Shown: in pieces, positions 23,266 to 30,686 of the stretch | Position numbering within the stretch: position 1 is the first letter of the stretch | How the letters are laid out: the number at the start of each line of letters is the position of its first letter | NCBI RefSeq assembly: GCF_002283365.1 | Contig: NZ_MQWD01000001.1 | Span: forward strand, 4,115,941-4,179,940 | Direction of reading: 5' to 3' | DNA: 64,000 nt | Origin: Rubrivirga marina | Lineage (GTDB): Bacteria > Bacteroidota > Rhodothermia > Rhodothermales > Rubricoccaceae | The notes under the pieces: generated by a model | The model's database searches: none | What the model was told of the DNA's origin: nothing | What the model saw: only the letters and a program-made list of their open reading frames with translations | Position numbers and translations under genes: made by a program

Positions 23266-23308
23266 CCTATCTGGACTAGATCTAAGTTTGGACCCAGTCC
23301 AGATAAGG
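23266..23308. promoter_or_regulatory. Operator-like inverted repeat enclosing the promoter of the haem cassette
   Basis: TATCTGGACT (23268-23277) is repeated in inverse as AGTCCAGATA (23296-23305), 18 bases apart, and an inner 8-base palindrome TAGATCTA (23277-23284) lies between them. The -7 element TAAGTTTG is inside the repeat. A dimeric or tetrameric repressor bound here would block transcription. Iron/haem responsiveness is inferred only from the genes downstream. Confidence 0.65.
23283..23290 (+). promoter_or_regulatory. -7 promoter element, exact TAnnTTTG match
   Basis: TAAGTTTG matches the Bacteroidota -7 consensus exactly and predicts transcription from about base 23297, 16 bases before the ATG of the first cassette gene. 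Confidence 0.65.
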
Positions 23309-23312
23309 CTCT

Positions 23313-23660
23313 ATGCCCACACCGCCCCCCCTCTCCGACCTTCGCCTCGCCCAATCTGACCGGGGCGTCGTGGCGCGGTGCCCATGCTGTGGCGACCTCG
23401 ACCTCCAGTTCGACGGCGTCGGCGTGACGCTCTCGTCGGCGCAGCTCCGTCAGATGCGGCGCGCGCTAGCCGCCGTCCACGCCGAAAAGGACGCACGTTG
23501 GGGGTGGGCCCTCCGTACGGAGACCACGCGGGAGTCGGCGGTCTTCCGCCTCGTCGGCGACGACGCCGAAGACCTGGCGGGCCTCCTCGACGCGGCCGTA
23601 GCCGTCCTAGACCTGGATGCCCTCCTCCTCAACGCGCTCGCCCCTCGCCCCACCGCGTGA
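23313..23660 (+). CDS. Small CxCCG protein heading the haem-uptake cassette
   Basis: A 115-residue soluble protein. The N-terminal third has RCPCCGDLDLQFDGVGVTLSSAQL, a Cys-rich knuckle followed by a beta strand; similar small proteins (DUF6686-like) occur in Bacteroidota next to TonB receptors for haem. The C-terminal half is helical and acidic (DDAEDLAGLLDAAVAVLDLDALLL). The CPCC could bind iron, zinc or haem. Its stop TGA overlaps the ATG of the TonB receptor (TGATG), so the two are translationally coupled. It is first in the operon behind the inverted-repeat promoter. Precise role unknown. Confidence 0.7.
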   Translation: MPTPPPLSDLRLAQSDRGVVARCPCCGDLDLQFDGVGVTLSSAQLRQMRRALAAVHAEKDARWGWALRTETTRESAVFRLVGDDAEDLAGLLDAAVAVLDLDALLLNALAPRPTA

Positions 23661-25966
23661 TGCGGATCGCCCTCCTCACAGCGCTCCTCGCCGTGTCGGT
23701 GCCCGCCGCTGCGGGGCAGGTCGTCCGCGGGCGCGTCACGGACACCGATACGGGCGCCCCCGTCGTCGGCGCAGCGATTCGGGCGTCCGAGCGCGGCTCG
23801 GCCGCCGGTGCAGACGGCGCCTTCCTCCTCACGCTCCCCGAGGCGGGGGAGGCCGCGCTCCGCATCACGGCCGTCGGGTACCAGCCGGTCGAACAGACCG
23901 TGGCAGTCGCCCCCGGCGACACGCTCCGCCTCGACGTCGCGCTCGCCCCCCGCGAGATCCGAACCGACCGCGTCGTCGTGACGGCCACGCGGACGGCGAA
24001 GGCGCTCGAAGACGTCGCCGTCCCGACGACGGTCGTCGACGCCGAGACGATCCGCCGGCAGGGCGCCGTCCGCCTCGGCGACGTGCTGGAGACGGTCCCC
24101 GGCCTCCAGCTCTTCGACGACCACGGCGGCGGCGTCCAAGTCCAGGGCTTCTCGTCCGACTACACCCTCGTCCTGCTCGACGGCGAGCCCGTCATCGGGC
24201 GGACGGCCGGGACGCTCGACGTGGACCGGCTGACGGTCGCGGGCGTCGAGCGGGTCGAGGTCGTCGCGGGGCCGTCGTCGTCGCTCTACGGGAGCGAGGC
24301 GCTCGCGGGCGTGGTCAACCTCGTGACGGCGCTGCCGGCGCCGGGGACCGAAGCGGGCGCGCTCCGCCTCCGCGCCGGCTCGTACGGGCAGACCGACGCG
24401 ACGGCCGAGGCGGCTCTGGGGCGCGATGGCTGGGCCGCCCGCACGTTCGTCAACCGGTTCGGCTCCGCCGGGTACGACCTCACGCCCGACGCCTTTGGCC
24501 CGACCGTCCCGGCCTTCACCGACTGGACGGCCGACCTCCGCGCCCGCGCCAACCTCGGCGCCGCTCGGCTGAGCCTCGGTGCGCGCCTCGCCGCGCAGGA
24601 CCAGTCCGGCGCGTTCGCAGGCCTCGAGGATGGCGCCGAGGTTCGCTACGACGACACGGCCAGCCGCCTCGACTGGAGCGTCCACCCCGAGCTCGCGCTC
24701 CCCCTCGGGGAGCGGTTCCGCCTCACGACGACGCTCTACGGGGCCCGCTACGCGACTGAGACCCGCTACCGCCGGCAGTCCGACGGCAGACTCTTTTACT
24801 CGGACGACTTCGACCAGCGCTATTCGAAGGCCGAGGCGCAGCTCGACGCGCTCTGGAGCGCGCGGCACCTGACCGTCGTCGGGGCCGGCGCCATCGACGA
24901 GCGACTCGCAGGCGACCGCTACGGCGAGGACGCGGCCGGGGCGGCGCCGAGCGCGCAGCAGGTCTACGCCTTCGCCCAGCACGAGTGGGCCCTGTCGCGG
25001 CTCCTCGAGGTGAATGCGAGCGCCCGGTTCGACGCGCACTCCGACTACGCGGCCCGGCTCACGCCGAAGCTGTCGGTGCTGGCCCGCCCGAGCGACGCCC
25101 TGCGCCTGCGGGCGAGCGTCGGGAGCGGGTTCAAGGCGCCGGCCTTCCGGCAGCTCTACCTCTCGTTCACGAACGCCGCCGCCGGCTACAGCGTGTTCGG
25201 GTCTACCCGCCTCGAAGAAGGACTCCGAGCCCTCGACGAACAGGGCCAGCTCGCGCAGGTCTTCCTCGACCCGGCCGCGCTCGGCGCCATCGAGGCCGAG
25301 AGCTCCGTCGCCTTCAACGTCGGCGCCGCGGTCGACCTCACGCCGGCCCTCAGGGTCGAGGCCGGCGCGTTCTGGAACGAGGTCTCGGACCTCATCGAGA
25401 CCCAGCCCGTCGCGCAGAAGACGAACGGGCAGTCTGTCTTCGGCTACTTCAACCTCGACCGGGTCTACACGCGCGGGCTCGACGCCCAAGTCACGGCCCG
25501 GCCGCTGGGGGGCGTCGAGGTCGTGGGCAGCTACCAGTTCCTGCAGGCCCGCGACCGCGACCTCGTCGAGGCGCTGGAGACGGGGACCGTCTTCGGGCGC
25601 GACCTCGACGGGCGCGACACGCGCCTCACCGTCGGCGACTACGGGGGCCTGTTCGGCCGGTCGCCGCACGCCGCCATGCTCCGCGCGACGCTCACGAGGG
25701 GGTCCGCCTCGGCGTCGCTGCGGGGACGCTGGCGGAGCCGCTACGGCTACCGCGACCTCGACGGCAACGGCCTCGCCAACCGCGACGACGAGTTCGTCCC
25801 CGGCTACGCCGTCCTCGACCTCACGCTCACGAAATCGTGGGCGACGCCCGCCGGCCGCCTCCAGGCCCAGGCCGGCGCGGAGAACCTCCTCGACGTCACG
25901 CGCTCGACGCTCGTGCCGTCCCTGCCGGGCCGCACGCTCTTCGCGTCGCTCGGCCTCTCGCTGTAA
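23660..25966 (+). CDS. TonB-dependent outer-membrane receptor (probable haem receptor)
   Basis: A 768-residue protein. Signal peptide (MRIALLTALLAVSVPAAAGQ), then a carboxypeptidase-regulatory-like domain (VVRGRVTDTDTGAPVVGAAI), the plug domain (VPTTVVDAETIRRQGAVRLG, VQGFSSDYTLVLLDGEPVIG, VERVEVVAGPSSSLYGSEAL) and a 22-strand barrel ending in the aromatic strand LFASLGLSL. It imports a ligand across the outer membrane using TonB energy. The HmuY-like gene next in line and the FepA/HmuR-like plug argue for haem; a canonical FRAP/NPNL haem box was not found. It is coupled to the upstream CxCCG gene. Confidence 0.9.
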   Translation: MRIALLTALLAVSVPAAAGQVVRGRVTDTDTGAPVVGAAIRASERGSAAGADGAFLLTLPEAGEAALRITAVGYQPVEQTVAVAPGDTLRLDVALAPREIRTDRVVVTATRTAKALEDVAVPTTVVDAETIRRQGAVRLGDVLETVPGLQLFDDHGGGVQVQGFSSDYTLVLLDGEPVIGRTAGTLDVDRLTVAGVERVEVVAGPSSSLYGSEALAGVVNLVTALPAPGTEAGALRLRAGSYGQTDATAEAALGRDGWAARTFVNRFGSAGYDLTPDAFGPTVPAFTDWTADLRARANLGAARLSLGARLAAQDQSGAFAGLEDGAEVRYDDTASRLDWSVHPELALPLGERFRLTTTLYGARYATETRYRRQSDGRLFYSDDFDQRYSKAEAQLDALWSARHLTVVGAGAIDERLAGDRYGEDAAGAAPSAQQVYAFAQHEWALSRLLEVNASARFDAHSDYAARLTPKLSVLARPSDALRLRASVGSGFKAPAFRQLYLSFTNAAAGYSVFGSTRLEEGLRALDEQGQLAQVFLDPAALGAIEAESSVAFNVGAAVDLTPALRVEAGAFWNEVSDLIETQPVAQKTNGQSVFGYFNLDRVYTRGLDAQVTARPLGGVEVVGSYQFLQARDRDLVEALETGTVFGRDLDGRDTRLTVGDYGGLFGRSPHAAMLRATLTRGSASASLRGRWRSRYGYRDLDGNGLANRDDEFVPGYAVLDLTLTKSWATPAGRLQAQAGAENLLDVTRSTLVPSLPGRTLFASLGLSL

Positions 25967-26003
25967 CCCCCACTTCCACCGCGTGCTCACCCCACGCCGC
26001 CTC

Positions 26004-26714
26004 ATGACCCGCCTCCCCCTCTTCGCCCTCGCGGGCGCCCTCGCCCTCTCTGCCTGCGACGCGACCGAGGCCGACGAGGTCGTCGACCTCAAGGCCCAGG
26101 TCGCCGCCGACGTCGAGGCCGACCCGACCACGGGCCGCGACCCCGTGACGGGCGCCCCGATCGCCAACGACCTGTTCACGCTCTACGACCTCGACGCGGG
26201 CGAGGTCGTCCTGTCGTCGTCCGAGACCGACCCGGCCGTCCGCGCGGCCGACTCGACCTCGACGGCCTGGGACCTCGGCTTCCGCGGGACGACGATCATC
26301 GTCAACGGCGGCACGAGCGGCCCGGGCGAGGGCTCGGCCCAGCTCCTCACCGAGGCCTTCGCCGACGTGACCGAGGCGCCCGCCACCGGCTATTTCGCCG
26401 ACGGCGAGAACCCCAACTGCCCGGCCGTCGAGACGCCCGGTGGGACGTTCCCCGGCGCGCCGTATGCCATCTGCACGGGCGGCGACAACGGCTGGTACAA
26501 CTACAACCCCGCGAACAACCTGATCGCGCCGATCCCGGGCCGGACGATCGCCCTCACGACGGGCGACGGCGACTACGCCAAGGTCCGGATCCTGAGCTAC
26601 TACCGGGGCAACCCGACCCCGCCGGACCCCTCGGCCCCGAGCCGCTACTACACGTTCGAGTACGTCGTCCAGCCCGACGGCTCGCGCGACTTCCTGACGA
26701 CGGCCGCCGAGTAG
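26004..26714 (+). CDS. HmuY-like haem-binding lipoprotein
   Basis: A 236-residue lipoprotein (MTRLPLFALAGALALSAC, lipobox LSAC). The mature part matches the HmuY family in layout: FTLYDLDAGEVV strand, WDLGFRGTTIIVNGGTSGPG, TGYFADGENPNCPAV, then GDYAKVRILSYYRG and RYYTFEYVVQPDGS. HmuY proteins capture haem at the cell surface and pass it to the TonB receptor; here the receptor gene is 37 bases upstream. The two methionine or histidine ligands known in Porphyromonas HmuY are not conserved as His, so ligand residues cannot be named. Confidence 0.85.
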   Translation: MTRLPLFALAGALALSACDATEADEVVDLKAQVAADVEADPTTGRDPVTGAPIANDLFTLYDLDAGEVVLSSSETDPAVRAADSTSTAWDLGFRGTTIIVNGGTSGPGEGSAQLLTEAFADVTEAPATGYFADGENPNCPAVETPGGTFPGAPYAICTGGDNGWYNYNPANNLIAPIPGRTIALTTGDGDYAKVRILSYYRGNPTPPDPSAPSRYYTFEYVVQPDGSRDFLTTAAE

Positions 26715-26752
26715 CGCTCGCAGGCCCCCGACACCGCCCCTCCCCCGTTTTC

Positions 26753-27730
26753 ATGATGTCCCGCCCTCTCCTCGTCGCCCTCCTCGCGCTCCTGATGCCG
26801 AGCGCGATGGCCCAGTCCGCCGACACGCCCGGCCTCCTCGTGATGGCCCACGGCGGTGACCCCGCCTGGAACGCCTCGGTCGAGGACGCGCTCGCCCCGC
26901 TCCGCGAGCTCTACCCCGTCGCCCTCGCCTTCGGAATGGCCGACCCGGCCTCGCTCGGTGCCGGCCTCGGGGAGCTCGCGGACCAAGGCGCCGAGCGCGT
27001 GGCCATCGTCCGACTGTTCCTCGACGGACGCTCGTTCCTCCACCAGACCGAGTACTTCCTCGGGCTCCGGGACGACCCGCCCGCCCAGTTCGTCCTCCAC
27101 GGCGCGCACGGGGCGCCGGCCGGCCGCGGGGCCGGGAGCGGACACGGGGCCACCCGTGGGCACGCTCAGGCCGGGCATGGAAGCGGGCACGCCGCCGGGC
27201 ACGGGGCCGCGTCGGCGACGCCGGAGCCCGTCGCCCACGGCCTCGACCTCGCCCTCTCGCTCGACGGGCTCATGAAGGCCGACGAGGTCGCTCTGATCCT
27301 GGCCGCACGGGCAGAGGCGATCAGCCAGTCGCCCTCAGAGGAGTCGGTCCTCGTCCTCGCCCACGGCACCGGCGACGACGTCGAGAACGCGCGGTGGATC
27401 GCGGCGATGGAGCGCCTCACGGGCGACCTCCGCGCCGACGGCTACCACGCGGTCCGCGTCGAGACGCTCCGGGAGGACTGGCCGGAGCCGCGCGCAGCGG
27501 CCGAGCGGGCGATCCGCGGGTACGTCGAGGCCGAGACCGAGGCGGGCCGGCGCGTGCTCGTCGTCCCGTTCCGGCTGTCGGGCTTCGGGCCGTACCGCGA
27601 CGTGCTCGAGGGGCTCGACTACACGGCATCGGAGGCCGGCATCCTCCCGCACGCCGCCGTGACGGACTGGGTGGACCGGGAGTACCGCGCGCTCGTCGCC
27701 CGCGCGGGCTGGGCGTCCCCCACGCCCTGA
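26753..27730 (+). CDS. Exported two-domain CbiX-like chelatase with His-rich linker
   Basis: A 325-residue protein with a signal peptide (MMSRPLLVALLALLMPSAMAQ). Two CbiX/sirohydrochlorin-chelatase half-domains follow: LLVMAHGGDPAWNASVEDAL at about 28 and VLVLAHGTGDDVENARWI at about 200; the His in each AHG is the expected metal-insertion residue. Between them is a linker with many His-Gly pairs (GHGATRGHAQAGHGSGHAAG), a metal-binding stretch. Chelatases of this family act in the cytoplasm on tetrapyrroles; an exported version next to HmuY and a haem receptor suggests periplasmic removal or storage of haem metal. It is the last gene of the cassette, 38 bases after the HmuY-like gene. Confidence 0.8.
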   Translation: MMSRPLLVALLALLMPSAMAQSADTPGLLVMAHGGDPAWNASVEDALAPLRELYPVALAFGMADPASLGAGLGELADQGAERVAIVRLFLDGRSFLHQTEYFLGLRDDPPAQFVLHGAHGAPAGRGAGSGHGATRGHAQAGHGSGHAAGHGAASATPEPVAHGLDLALSLDGLMKADEVALILAARAEAISQSPSEESVLVLAHGTGDDVENARWIAAMERLTGDLRADGYHAVRVETLREDWPEPRAAAERAIRGYVEAETEAGRRVLVVPFRLSGFGPYRDVLEGLDYTASEAGILPHAAVTDWVDREYRALVARAGWASPTP

Positions 27731-27803: not shown

Positions 27804-28190
27804 ATGGCTCGAACCTCGTCCATCGCCGCCCGCCTCGTGCTCGTGCTCGCGCTGCTCGTGAGCACGCAGGGCGCGCTGTTGGTGCGCGGCCTGTTCGAGG
27901 TGCGCCAGGAGTGGATCTCGGAGCACCTCTGCGAGAACCGGAACCACCCGGAGCGCGAGTGCAACGGGATGTGCGTGCTCAAGCGCCAGATGGAGGAGCA
28001 TAGCCACCACGGGGACGAGGGAGGGACGGAGGCGATCCTCACGATGCCCACCGTGATCGCGCTCCTCGCGCCCGAGGCCACGGTCCCCCCGGACCGCTGG
28101 CGGAAGGCGACGACGCCCACGGTGGGCGACGAGCGGGTGCCCGACGGAGGCGCCCTGGAGGGCGTGTTCCGTCCGCCGAGGGTCGGGTAG
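27804..28190 (+). CDS. Small membrane-anchored Cys/His protein (CNGMC motif)
   Basis: A 128-residue protein. A single N-terminal membrane helix (about 7-27, LVLVLALLVSTQGALLV) is followed by a periplasmic segment containing EHLCENRNHPERECNGMC and EHSHHG. The spacing C-x9-C-x3-C then LKRQ is typical of small Bacteroidota proteins encoded beside TonB receptors for metals, copper being the usual guess; the function is not established. GTACGTTGAC just upstream may be its -7 region (near 27763). It begins a second uptake cassette, followed by a TonB receptor and a sialidase-fold lipoprotein. Confidence 0.65.
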   Translation: MARTSSIAARLVLVLALLVSTQGALLVRGLFEVRQEWISEHLCENRNHPERECNGMCVLKRQMEEHSHHGDEGGTEAILTMPTVIALLAPEATVPPDRWRKATTPTVGDERVPDGGALEGVFRPPRVG

Positions 28191-28361
28191 AGACCGCCCG
28201 CCCGCTCCCTGACCGGACCTCCGCGCCGCGTCGCGCACGCCTGCCAAGCCGTGCCGACGCGGGGTGCGCGGACGCGATCCGCGTGGAGGGGAGTCCGGGT
28301 GGGCGACGTGGTTTGGCCGCCGACCGGTGGCCTCTCGTCCCCGTTCCCGACTCTCATTCTC

Positions 28362-30686
28362 ATGTCTCGCACTCCCCATTGGGGCGCCGTGCTCGTCGCG
28401 CTGGCGCTCCTCCTCGGGCCGCCCGCCGCGGCCCAGGTGTCCTCCACCGCCGTCTCCGGCCGCGTCCTCGACGCGGAGACCGAGGCGGCCCTCCCCGGCG
28501 TCACCGTCCTCGTGGACGGCAGCACGCTCGGGACCTCGACCGACGAGACCGGCCGGTTCCGGTTCGTCCTCCCCCGCCCCGAGGCCACGCTCACGGTCTC
28601 GTTCATCGGCTACCGCACCGAGCGCGTCGCCGCCCACGCAGGGGGCGACCTGACGGTCCGCCTCGCGCCGTCGACTTCGGACCTCCAGCCCGTCGTGGTG
28701 ACGGGCAGCCGGACGGCCCGGGCCCGGGCCGAGGCGCCCGTCGCCCTCTCCGCCATCACGGCCGCCGACCTCCAGGCGACGCGGCCCAACCTCCTCGCCG
28801 ACGCGCTCAACCGCGCGCCCGGCGTCTACATGGCTGACCTCGGCAACGAGCAGCACGCCATGTCGATCCGCCAGCCGATCTCGTACAAGCCGTTCTACGT
28901 CTACCTCGAGGACGGCGTGCCGATCCGGCCGGCCGGGCTGTTCAACCACAACGCGCTCATCGAGGTCAACATGGCCGCGGCGGACCAGATCGAGATCGTC
29001 CGCGGGCCGGGCTCGTCGCTCTACGGGGCCGGCGCCATCGGCGGCGCCGTCAACGTCTCGACGCCGGCGCCCAGCGTGGCGCCGCTCGGCGAGGTCGCCC
29101 TCCGGGGCGGCGGCGCGGGCTACGGCCGGGCCGACCTCGAGGTGTCGGGGACGGCCGGCGGGACCGGCCTCTACGCCGGCGGCTACGTCGCCGGCCAGCG
29201 CGGCGGCTTCCGCGAGCACTCGGACTACGAGAAGGCCTCGCTGTCACTCCGTGCCGACCGCGCCCTCGGCGACTGGCAGCTCTCAGCGACGGCCTCGCTC
29301 CACTCGCTCACGACCGACACCGACGGCTCGCTCGACAGCACCAACTTTTTCGGGAACGGCGTGACGAGCCAGCAGACGTTCACCAACCGGGAGGTCCGCG
29401 CCGGCCGCGCCTCGCTCCGCGCCGACCGCGTCTGGAGCGCCAGACAGCGGACGACGGCGACGCTCTTCGGCCGCGCCAACCGCGTCGGCCAGACGCCGCA
29501 CTACCGACTCCGCCTGAACGCGGCCGACCCGACCCGCGCCTCCGGCGAGGTCAACGACAACGCGTTCCAGAGCGTCGGCCTGCTCGCCCAGCACGAGGCG
29601 GTGTTCTCGCGCGCCCGGCTCCTCGTCGGCGGGATCGTGGACCTCACGCCGGCCGGCTACGTGGCGAACTACATCGACGTCCGGCGCGACCCGGCGACCG
29701 GCGTGTTCACGGGCTTCACCGCCACCGACTCGCTCCTCACCGACTACGACGTCACGCTCACGAACCTCGCGGCGTTCGCGCAGGGCGAGGTCGAGCCGGT
29801 CGAGCGCCTCAAGCTGGTCGCGGGCGTCCGCGTCGACCGCGTGGGGTACGACCTCGACAACCACCTCCCATCCGGCTCGTTCTCCGGCGCGGCCGACCGC
29901 TCGGACACGTTCTCGCGCGTCACGCCGCGCGTCGGCGCCGTCTACGCGGTCACGCCGCAGACGGGGCTCTACGCGAACGCCAGCCAGGGCTTCCTCCCGC
30001 CCGAGGCCGGCGAGCTGTACCGGGGCGTCCAGGTCCCGACGCTCCGCCCGGCGACGTTCGACTCGTACGAGATCGGCGGATTCGTTCAGGCCTTGGGCGG
30101 TCGACTCGCCGCGGACGCGTCGGTGTACCGGATGACGGGCCAGGACGAGATCGTCTCCGTCCGCCAACCCGACGGGTCGAGCCAGGACCAGAACGCGGGC
30201 GCGACGCGGCACGAGGGCGTCGAACTCGCGCTCGCCATCCAGCCGGCGTCGGCCGTCACCGTCCGGCTCTCAGGCACGGCTGCGCAGCATACGTACCTCG
30301 ACTTCCTCGTCGACGAGCGCGAGGGCCGCGAGCTCCGCTACGACGGGAACCGGATGGAGCTCGCGCCCGAGCACGTCGTCAACGCCGAGGTGGCCGTGCG
30401 GCCGCCCGCCCTCCGCGGGCTCCGCCTCGCGGCCGAGGTCCAGCGCGTCGGGCCGTACTGGATGGACCCGCAGAACACCGCGCGCTACGACGGGCACACG
30501 GTCCTCAACCTCCGCGCGCAGTACGCGGGCGACCGCCTCGGCGGGCTCGAGCTGTGGGCGAACCTCCTCAACGCCACCGACGCGCTCTACGCGACGACGG
30601 CCGCGGTCTCGTTCGGGCGGAAGCAGTACACGCCCGGCCTCCCGCGCTCCGTCACGGTCGGTCTCGGCTACCACTTTGGACGATGA
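28362..30686 (+). CDS. TonB-dependent outer-membrane receptor with CarboxypepD-like domain
   Basis: A 774-residue protein. Signal peptide (MSRTPHWGAVLVALALLLG), a carboxypeptidase-regulatory-like domain (VSGRVLDAETEAALPGVTVL ... FSFIGYRTE-type strand FIGYRTERVAAHAG), plug (VVTGSRTARARAEAPVALSA, ALNRAPGVYMADLGNEQHAM, VRGPGSSLYGAGAIGGAVN) and a beta-barrel ending YHFGR. Its stop overlaps the next ATG by four bases. The ligand is unknown; the neighbours with CNGMC and CECC motifs point to a transition metal or metallophore rather than a sugar. The start region has GTGGTTTGG near 28309, resembling the -7 boxes elsewhere in the window. Confidence 0.9.
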   Translation: MSRTPHWGAVLVALALLLGPPAAAQVSSTAVSGRVLDAETEAALPGVTVLVDGSTLGTSTDETGRFRFVLPRPEATLTVSFIGYRTERVAAHAGGDLTVRLAPSTSDLQPVVVTGSRTARARAEAPVALSAITAADLQATRPNLLADALNRAPGVYMADLGNEQHAMSIRQPISYKPFYVYLEDGVPIRPAGLFNHNALIEVNMAAADQIEIVRGPGSSLYGAGAIGGAVNVSTPAPSVAPLGEVALRGGGAGYGRADLEVSGTAGGTGLYAGGYVAGQRGGFREHSDYEKASLSLRADRALGDWQLSATASLHSLTTDTDGSLDSTNFFGNGVTSQQTFTNREVRAGRASLRADRVWSARQRTTATLFGRANRVGQTPHYRLRLNAADPTRASGEVNDNAFQSVGLLAQHEAVFSRARLLVGGIVDLTPAGYVANYIDVRRDPATGVFTGFTATDSLLTDYDVTLTNLAAFAQGEVEPVERLKLVAGVRVDRVGYDLDNHLPSGSFSGAADRSDTFSRVTPRVGAVYAVTPQTGLYANASQGFLPPEAGELYRGVQVPTLRPATFDSYEIGGFVQALGGRLAADASVYRMTGQDEIVSVRQPDGSSQDQNAGATRHEGVELALAIQPASAVTVRLSGTAAQHTYLDFLVDEREGRELRYDGNRMELAPEHVVNAEVAVRPPALRGLRLAAEVQRVGPYWMDPQNTARYDGHTVLNLRAQYAGDRLGGLELWANLLNATDALYATTAAVSFGRKQYTPGLPRSVTVGLGYHFGR

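Follow-up and report, generated by a model that had tools for sequence, protein, structure and literature searches.

The stretch analysed here, hereafter the window, comprises 64,000 nucleotides of the Rubrivirga marina genome (contig NZ_MQWD01000001.1, positions 4,115,941 to 4,179,940) and contains, at window positions 23313-27730, four plus-strand genes encoding a CxCCG protein, a TonB-dependent receptor, an HmuY-family protein and an exported CbiX-like protein. A first-pass annotation of the sequence had described the same operon, and both its coordinates and its four-gene composition hold. The genes are separated by gaps of -1, 37 and 38 bp, the ATG of the receptor gene overlapping the TGA of the CxCCG gene, and HmuY is adjoined by a TonB receptor on the same strand, as in HmuY-type operons; in about 46 Rhodothermales loci this order is kept, an HmuY orthologue lying directly 3' of the same receptor. 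Neither HmuTUV nor HmuS is present at the window's locus. The comparison with related genomes showed that at this locus the CbiX-like gene interchanges with HmuTUV, the haem ATP-binding cassette (ABC) importer.

HmuY homologues occur in 72 of 99 related genomes, the receptor being placed about 1.4 kb 5' of HmuY in almost all of the main loci retrieved. At the orthologous place of a congener (G001) the order is operator-receptor-HmuY-HmuT-HmuU-HmuV, HmuT, HmuU and HmuV here being, in turn, a periplasmic binding protein (PF01497), a permease of the FecCD family (PF01032, 302 bits) and the ATPase of the ABC importer; the same set lies at or near this place in 11 further genomes. In 47 Rhodothermales genomes, scored for HmuTUV at or near the HmuY locus, the two were never found together: 12 contained HmuTUV only, 22 the CbiX-like gene only and 13 neither, the rest of the genome of these 13 not having been searched for HmuTUV. 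The CbiX-like gene is thus present in 0 of 12 genomes with HmuTUV and in 22 of the 35 whose locus lacks it (Fisher p 1.1e-4, with no correction for kinship), a 52-residue match with a stop in G014 being counted as absence. The only mixed genus is that of the window, whose species carry either the CbiX-like gene or HmuTUV in the same slot behind receptor and HmuY, although the proteins are unrelated. One clear FecCD permease is encoded elsewhere in the window's genome; it is distant from HmuU, the best match reaching 170 bits to the HmuU of G001 against 367-715 bits for other HmuY-linked HmuU proteins, and it may serve cobalamin. The genome also contains FeoB and two HemH (ferrochelatase) genes, with which the host probably makes its own haem. 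A function similar to that proposed for HmuS-type proteins had been suggested at first pass, and this analogy is strengthened because the CbiX-like gene fills the HmuTUV slot.

The haem-acquisition role of the cassette is well supported, the claim of a haem-uptake operon being borne out by recurrence across several phyla. The search of the 99 relatives gave CbiX-like homologues in 37 genomes, and a scan of GTDB contigs returned 138 relatives, 80 of which were kept; the exported family extends to at least eight phyla, with members in Rhodothermota, Bacteroidota, Gemmatimonadota, Acidobacteriota, Planctomycetota, Nitrospirota, Armatimonadota, Myxococcota and Pseudomonadota, and no relatives were found in a scan of viral contigs. 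Chance or artefact was rejected as an explanation, because related genera have the cassette as well and members of the family occur in at least 80 loci. The neighbourhood search revealed the exported CbiX-like gene beside HmuY in Rhodothermus, in the order receptor-HmuY-CbiX-CxCCG, and in four Gemmatimonadota loci, in the order CbiX-HmuY-receptor (HmuY 41.6 bits). In Pseudomonadota it lies directly 3' of a same-strand TonB receptor in 12 loci, and in a thirteenth the receptor before it is truncated at the contig end. Three proteobacterial receptors were tested, and two of them scored above the curated cut-offs for haem/haemoglobin receptors (TIGR01786, TIGR01785). The haem-uptake gene HemP (PF10636, 57-67 bits) is located 5' of the receptor in three Pseudomonadota loci and directly 5' of the CbiX-like gene in a fourth. 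The family tree places the three haem-linked arrangements in three separate clades, that with the order CbiX-HmuY-receptor being mainly from Gemmatimonadota, with unlinked members between them.

The CbiX-like protein is classed as a member of the class II chelatase fold superfamily and as a putative chelatase only. Its score against PF01903 (20.2 bits) lies just under the cut-off of 22, and a PF01903 search of the whole genome misses it, so that standard annotation would probably overlook the gene. All 58 members of the non-redundant family alignment match PF01903 (best E 6.5e-9), and none matches PF06180, which covers the CbiK and IhtB/FetB group, at E up to 1. Solved structures were not reached by searches with a single sequence; with the family profile, CfbA (E 4.6e-5) and CbiX 3lyh (E 0.003) were matched by sequence. 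The AlphaFold model built from the 58-member alignment (predicted local distance difference test, pLDDT, 89.9; predicted template modelling score, pTM, 0.86) was matched structurally by SirB (Z 18.6), coproporphyrin ferrochelatase and CbiX 4ccs (16.4), CbiK-P (16.0) and FetB (15.3); ferrochelatases gave Z values of 15-16, and the match to CbiX 4ccs spans nearly the full length. On this model the two-lobed class II chelatase fold is regarded as settled, and together with the PF01903 matches of all 58 members it agrees with the double CbiX domain recognized at first pass.

The signal peptide had been proposed with the reservation that the start might be misassigned. This was rejected, as, in a crude scan, the first strand was immediately preceded by hydrophobic sequence in 78 of 81 family members, with a lipobox-like motif in about a third; the predicted export of the protein is supported by these N-termini. 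The linker with many His-Gly pairs described between the AHG motifs was found to be a family-wide trait: the window's linker contains 8 His in 56 residues, with 6 His-Gly pairs, the other 249 mature residues holding 5 His, and in the whole family the His content is 12.9% in linkers versus 2.5% elsewhere. The CfbA of M. jannaschii also has a His-rich loop at the linker position. An association of His97 with a His-rich linker, apparent in the first 22 sequences, failed in 58. The coordinates of all features are collected in Table 1.

Table 1. Features of the haem-uptake cassette and its upstream region (window coordinates).
Feature	Position	Strand	Remarks
Inverted repeat, probable operator	23268..23305	.	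38 bp; 18-nt arms, 83% complementary; 7 bp before first gene
CxCCG protein	23313..23660	+	115 aa; motif RCPCCG; weakly like DUF6510/DUF6686, both below cut-off
TonB-dependent receptor, HmuR-like position	23660..25966	+	768 aa; Pfam barrel, plug, CarboxypepD_reg
HmuY-family lipoprotein	26004..26714	+	236 aa; PF14064 37.6 bits, cut-off 27
Exported double CbiX-like protein	26753..27730	+	325 aa; PF01903 20.2 bits; model SirB Z 18.6
Signal peptide of CbiX-like protein	26753..26812	+	residues 1-20, predicted boundary between AMA and Q
His33 codon, first metal-ligand His of lobe 1 (AHGG)	26849..26851	+	invariant 58/58; aligns with AHG His of CbiX 3lyh
His-Gly-rich linker between lobes	27080..27247	+	residues 110-165; pLDDT <50, disordered in model
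His204 codon, lobe 2 (AHG)	27362..27364	+	invariant 58/58

The explanation which we favour, and whose chances as a whole we regard as about evenly poised, is that the CbiX-like protein is an exported tetrapyrrole-binding protein with a class II chelatase fold, by which haem would be held in the periplasm and its iron removed, in substitution for HmuTUV. It draws on the haem linkage in three clades with different gene orders, the exchange with HmuTUV, the fold, the presence of FeoB in a genome with neither CobN/HmuS nor a close HmuU, and the operator shared with a receptor-PepSY operon. Haem would be delivered to the outer membrane and passed through it by HmuY and the TonB-dependent receptor; the CbiX-like protein would hold it in the periplasm between the two lobes, with His33 and His204 facing the cleft as putative haem contacts, and would help to extract the iron. 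The released metal might, more speculatively, be taken by the His-rich linker, and ferrous iron would enter via FeoB, the CbiX-like protein thereby standing in for the HmuTUV of related species at the same place. That the protein receives haem in the periplasm is considered probable; that it helps to release iron, which would then enter through FeoB, has at best an even chance and perhaps slightly less. More tentative, and on balance doubtful, is the generalization that the pan-phylum exported CbiX-derived family consists of periplasmic haem de-chelatases feeding FeoB, an independent invention of the HmuS function letting its carriers drop the haem ABC importer.

Several findings weigh against this explanation. 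The metal ligands of SirB/CfbA are His10/His9, Glu43/Glu42 and His76/His75 (PMC11301274). The first of them (SirB His10) is kept as His33 in 58 of 58 members. The position of SirB Glu43 is occupied by Met62 in all 58 according to profile alignments, and hhalign against canonical CbiX gave the same result (Glu50 to Met62 fixed, the His loop ambiguous). The second metal His (SirB His76) aligns, in the comparison with CfbA, with an invariantly aromatic position (Phe/Trp95), in a loop where the alignments differ slightly. Two residues further on, position 97 is not conserved, although 49 of 58 members have Glu, His or Asp there. Two of the three ligands of the His-Glu-His metal site canonical for active CbiX members are thus replaced. 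In lobe 2, His204, R240-E241-D242-W243, R247, R274 and Y281 are invariant in the 58-member alignment. With one invariant His in each lobe and the classical metal site lost, the pattern is more in keeping with a protein that binds an already metallated tetrapyrrole than with one that inserts metal in the ordinary way, and iron removal would be compatible with it. Of the first-pass reading of an extracytoplasmic chelatase, which could strip or insert metal in tetrapyrroles, the export, fold, linker and haem operon are supported, and the chelatase activity stays putative: in the canonical metal site Glu is changed to Met and the second His to an aromatic residue, and the protein may bind haem with no insertion or removal of metal. 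On the genomic side, the exclusion of the CbiX-like gene and HmuTUV is not significant at genus level (p 0.09), and the distant FecCD importer of the window's genome could carry haem. Moreover, no haem gene is found nearby in many members from Planctomycetota, Acidobacteriota and Nitrospirota, in most from Gemmatimonadota and in several from Rhodothermales, and no common theme was found among the CbiX neighbours in Planctomycetota and Acidobacteriota.

A close rival, if a less likely one, is a non-catalytic haem carrier: the fold would be kept for its tetrapyrrole cleft, and the protein, in the periplasm or on the outer membrane, would ferry or store haem to serve a different importer. The loss of the metal-site Glu and the second His, with one His per lobe invariant, would suit such a protein, as would the position of its gene in the slot of a binding protein-permease-ATPase set; in addition, the Protein Data Bank (PDB) entry of FetB, which has a related fold, is described as apo, without a haem group. 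A carrier would, however, not replace the missing permease and ATPase, and the strict conservation of R240-E241-D242-W243, R247, R274 and Y281 in lobe 2 suggests more than passive binding, though they could serve to bind propionates. Extracytoplasmic metal insertion or exchange, in which scavenged porphyrin would receive a metal other than iron, as has been reported of FetB with manganese, is improbable. The predicted class II chelatase fold would permit it, a review states that FetB makes Mn-protoporphyrin in Porphyromonas gingivalis (PMC13402209), and the His-rich linker might supply the metal, a role suggested for that of CbiX-L of Bacillus megaterium (PMC7689651); the canonical metal ligands, however, are not conserved, and a host that probably makes its own haem has no apparent need for imported porphyrin. 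Import of cobamides or another tetrapyrrole instead of haem is very improbable, for although the top NCBIfam models of the window's receptor are TonB-B12 (132 bits) and TonB-hemin (124 bits), both below cut-off, and a BtuF-like gene adjoins the Rhodothermus cassette, the cassette is marked in three clades by HmuY, HemP and haem-receptor families and in congeners a canonical receptor-HmuY-HmuTUV set occupies the locus.

Exported class II chelatase-like proteins have precedents, in haem uptake and in the periplasm. IhtB/FetB of P. gingivalis, a CbiK-like outer-membrane protein, has been proposed to remove iron from haem extracellularly (PMC6460266). It shares with the window's protein an exported class II chelatase fold in haem uptake (solved structure 9b86, Z 15.3 to the model) but belongs to the CbiK side, whereas the CbiX profile is matched by all 58 members here; the identity in the structural alignment is 13%, and the descriptions of IhtB/FetB that were consulted mention no His-rich linker like that of the window's protein. 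CbiK-P of Desulfovibrio vulgaris is a periplasmic cobaltochelatase whose structure shows metal on His207 (PMC4063343), and is likewise a class II chelatase (Z 16.0 to the model, 19% identity). It is a member of the CbiK family, which keeps the catalytic His pair in the C-terminal lobe (PMC7689651), while the window's protein has its His33 in the N-terminal lobe and has lost the partner ligands. CbiX-L of B. megaterium, which has a C-terminal His-rich tract, and SirB/CfbA show the same fold and double-lobe plan; they are, however, biosynthetic enzymes with a His/Glu/His site, unlike the exported protein with Met and Phe/Trp at these positions. HmuS of the Bacteroides and Porphyromonas hmu operons, in which iron removal facing the periplasm is followed by Feo uptake (PMC12583661, PMC13227078), has the same operon context of HmuY and TonB receptor but is a CobN/ChlH-like protein of another fold, and no match to CobN/HmuS (PF02514) was found in the window's genome. 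In S. maltophilia, hemP-hemA-smlt0796-smlt0797 forms a haemin operon whose two predicted periplasmic proteins were dispensable (PMC9241770).

In the literature library that was searched, no paper on the CbiX-type exported family was found, and the family is apparently undescribed. The release of iron from haem in bacteria lacking haem oxygenase, and the compartment in which it occurs, are only now being worked out, HmuS having been shown to be a de-chelatase in 2025. The present family would be a second, structurally unrelated de-chelatase candidate, spread among environmental bacteria of many phyla and built on a chelatase fold whose metal ligands changed on leaving the cytoplasm. Within one genus the same locus carries either the CbiX-like gene or HmuTUV, a natural experiment through which the question can be tested directly.

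The 38-bp inverted repeat gave zero chance matches in shuffled sequence, and it is also present at the orthologous cassettes of congeners G001 and G002. Its sole further genomic copy (C1:3696512-3696547, 2 mismatches) lies just 5' of an operon of a TonB receptor and a PepSY membrane protein (197.6 bits), a combination that typifies siderophore uptake. The dyad is likely an iron-responsive operator.

With respect to the other parts of the operon, the receptor scored 112.8 bits against the barrel (PF00593) and 79.5 bits against the plug (PF07715). Homologues of the CxCCG protein recur in HmuY loci, beside CbiX in Rhodothermus (L032-L036) and beside HmuTUV in other genera (L217, L230, L231), so that it counts as a recurring uncharacterized component of haem operons in Rhodothermales.

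Other exported proteins related to CbiX were observed during the scan. Bacteroidota loci L140, L142 and L166 encode a distinct exported lipoprotein CbiX family with a complete His/Glu/His metal site. Loci L141, L143 and L144 and loci L145, L146, L148, L150 and L152 encode further exported CbiX-like proteins, a small single-domain one and a sister family having TVRDDA where the window's class has TLREDW. In one Rhodothermales genome (G062, L014; L041) the second CbiX lobe contains an in-frame TAG, which may represent decay or a sequencing error. In Alphaproteobacteria (L105, L113, L114, L120) a DUF6607 gene (PF20311) adjoins the CbiX-like gene and the TonB receptor, and its product is a candidate haem-uptake component. 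Beyond the cassette, at window positions 27804-30686, a small exported Cys/His-rich protein (CENRNHPERECNGMC, EEHSHHGDEGG) is encoded directly 5' of a second TonB receptor, and the pair looks like a separate metal-uptake unit.

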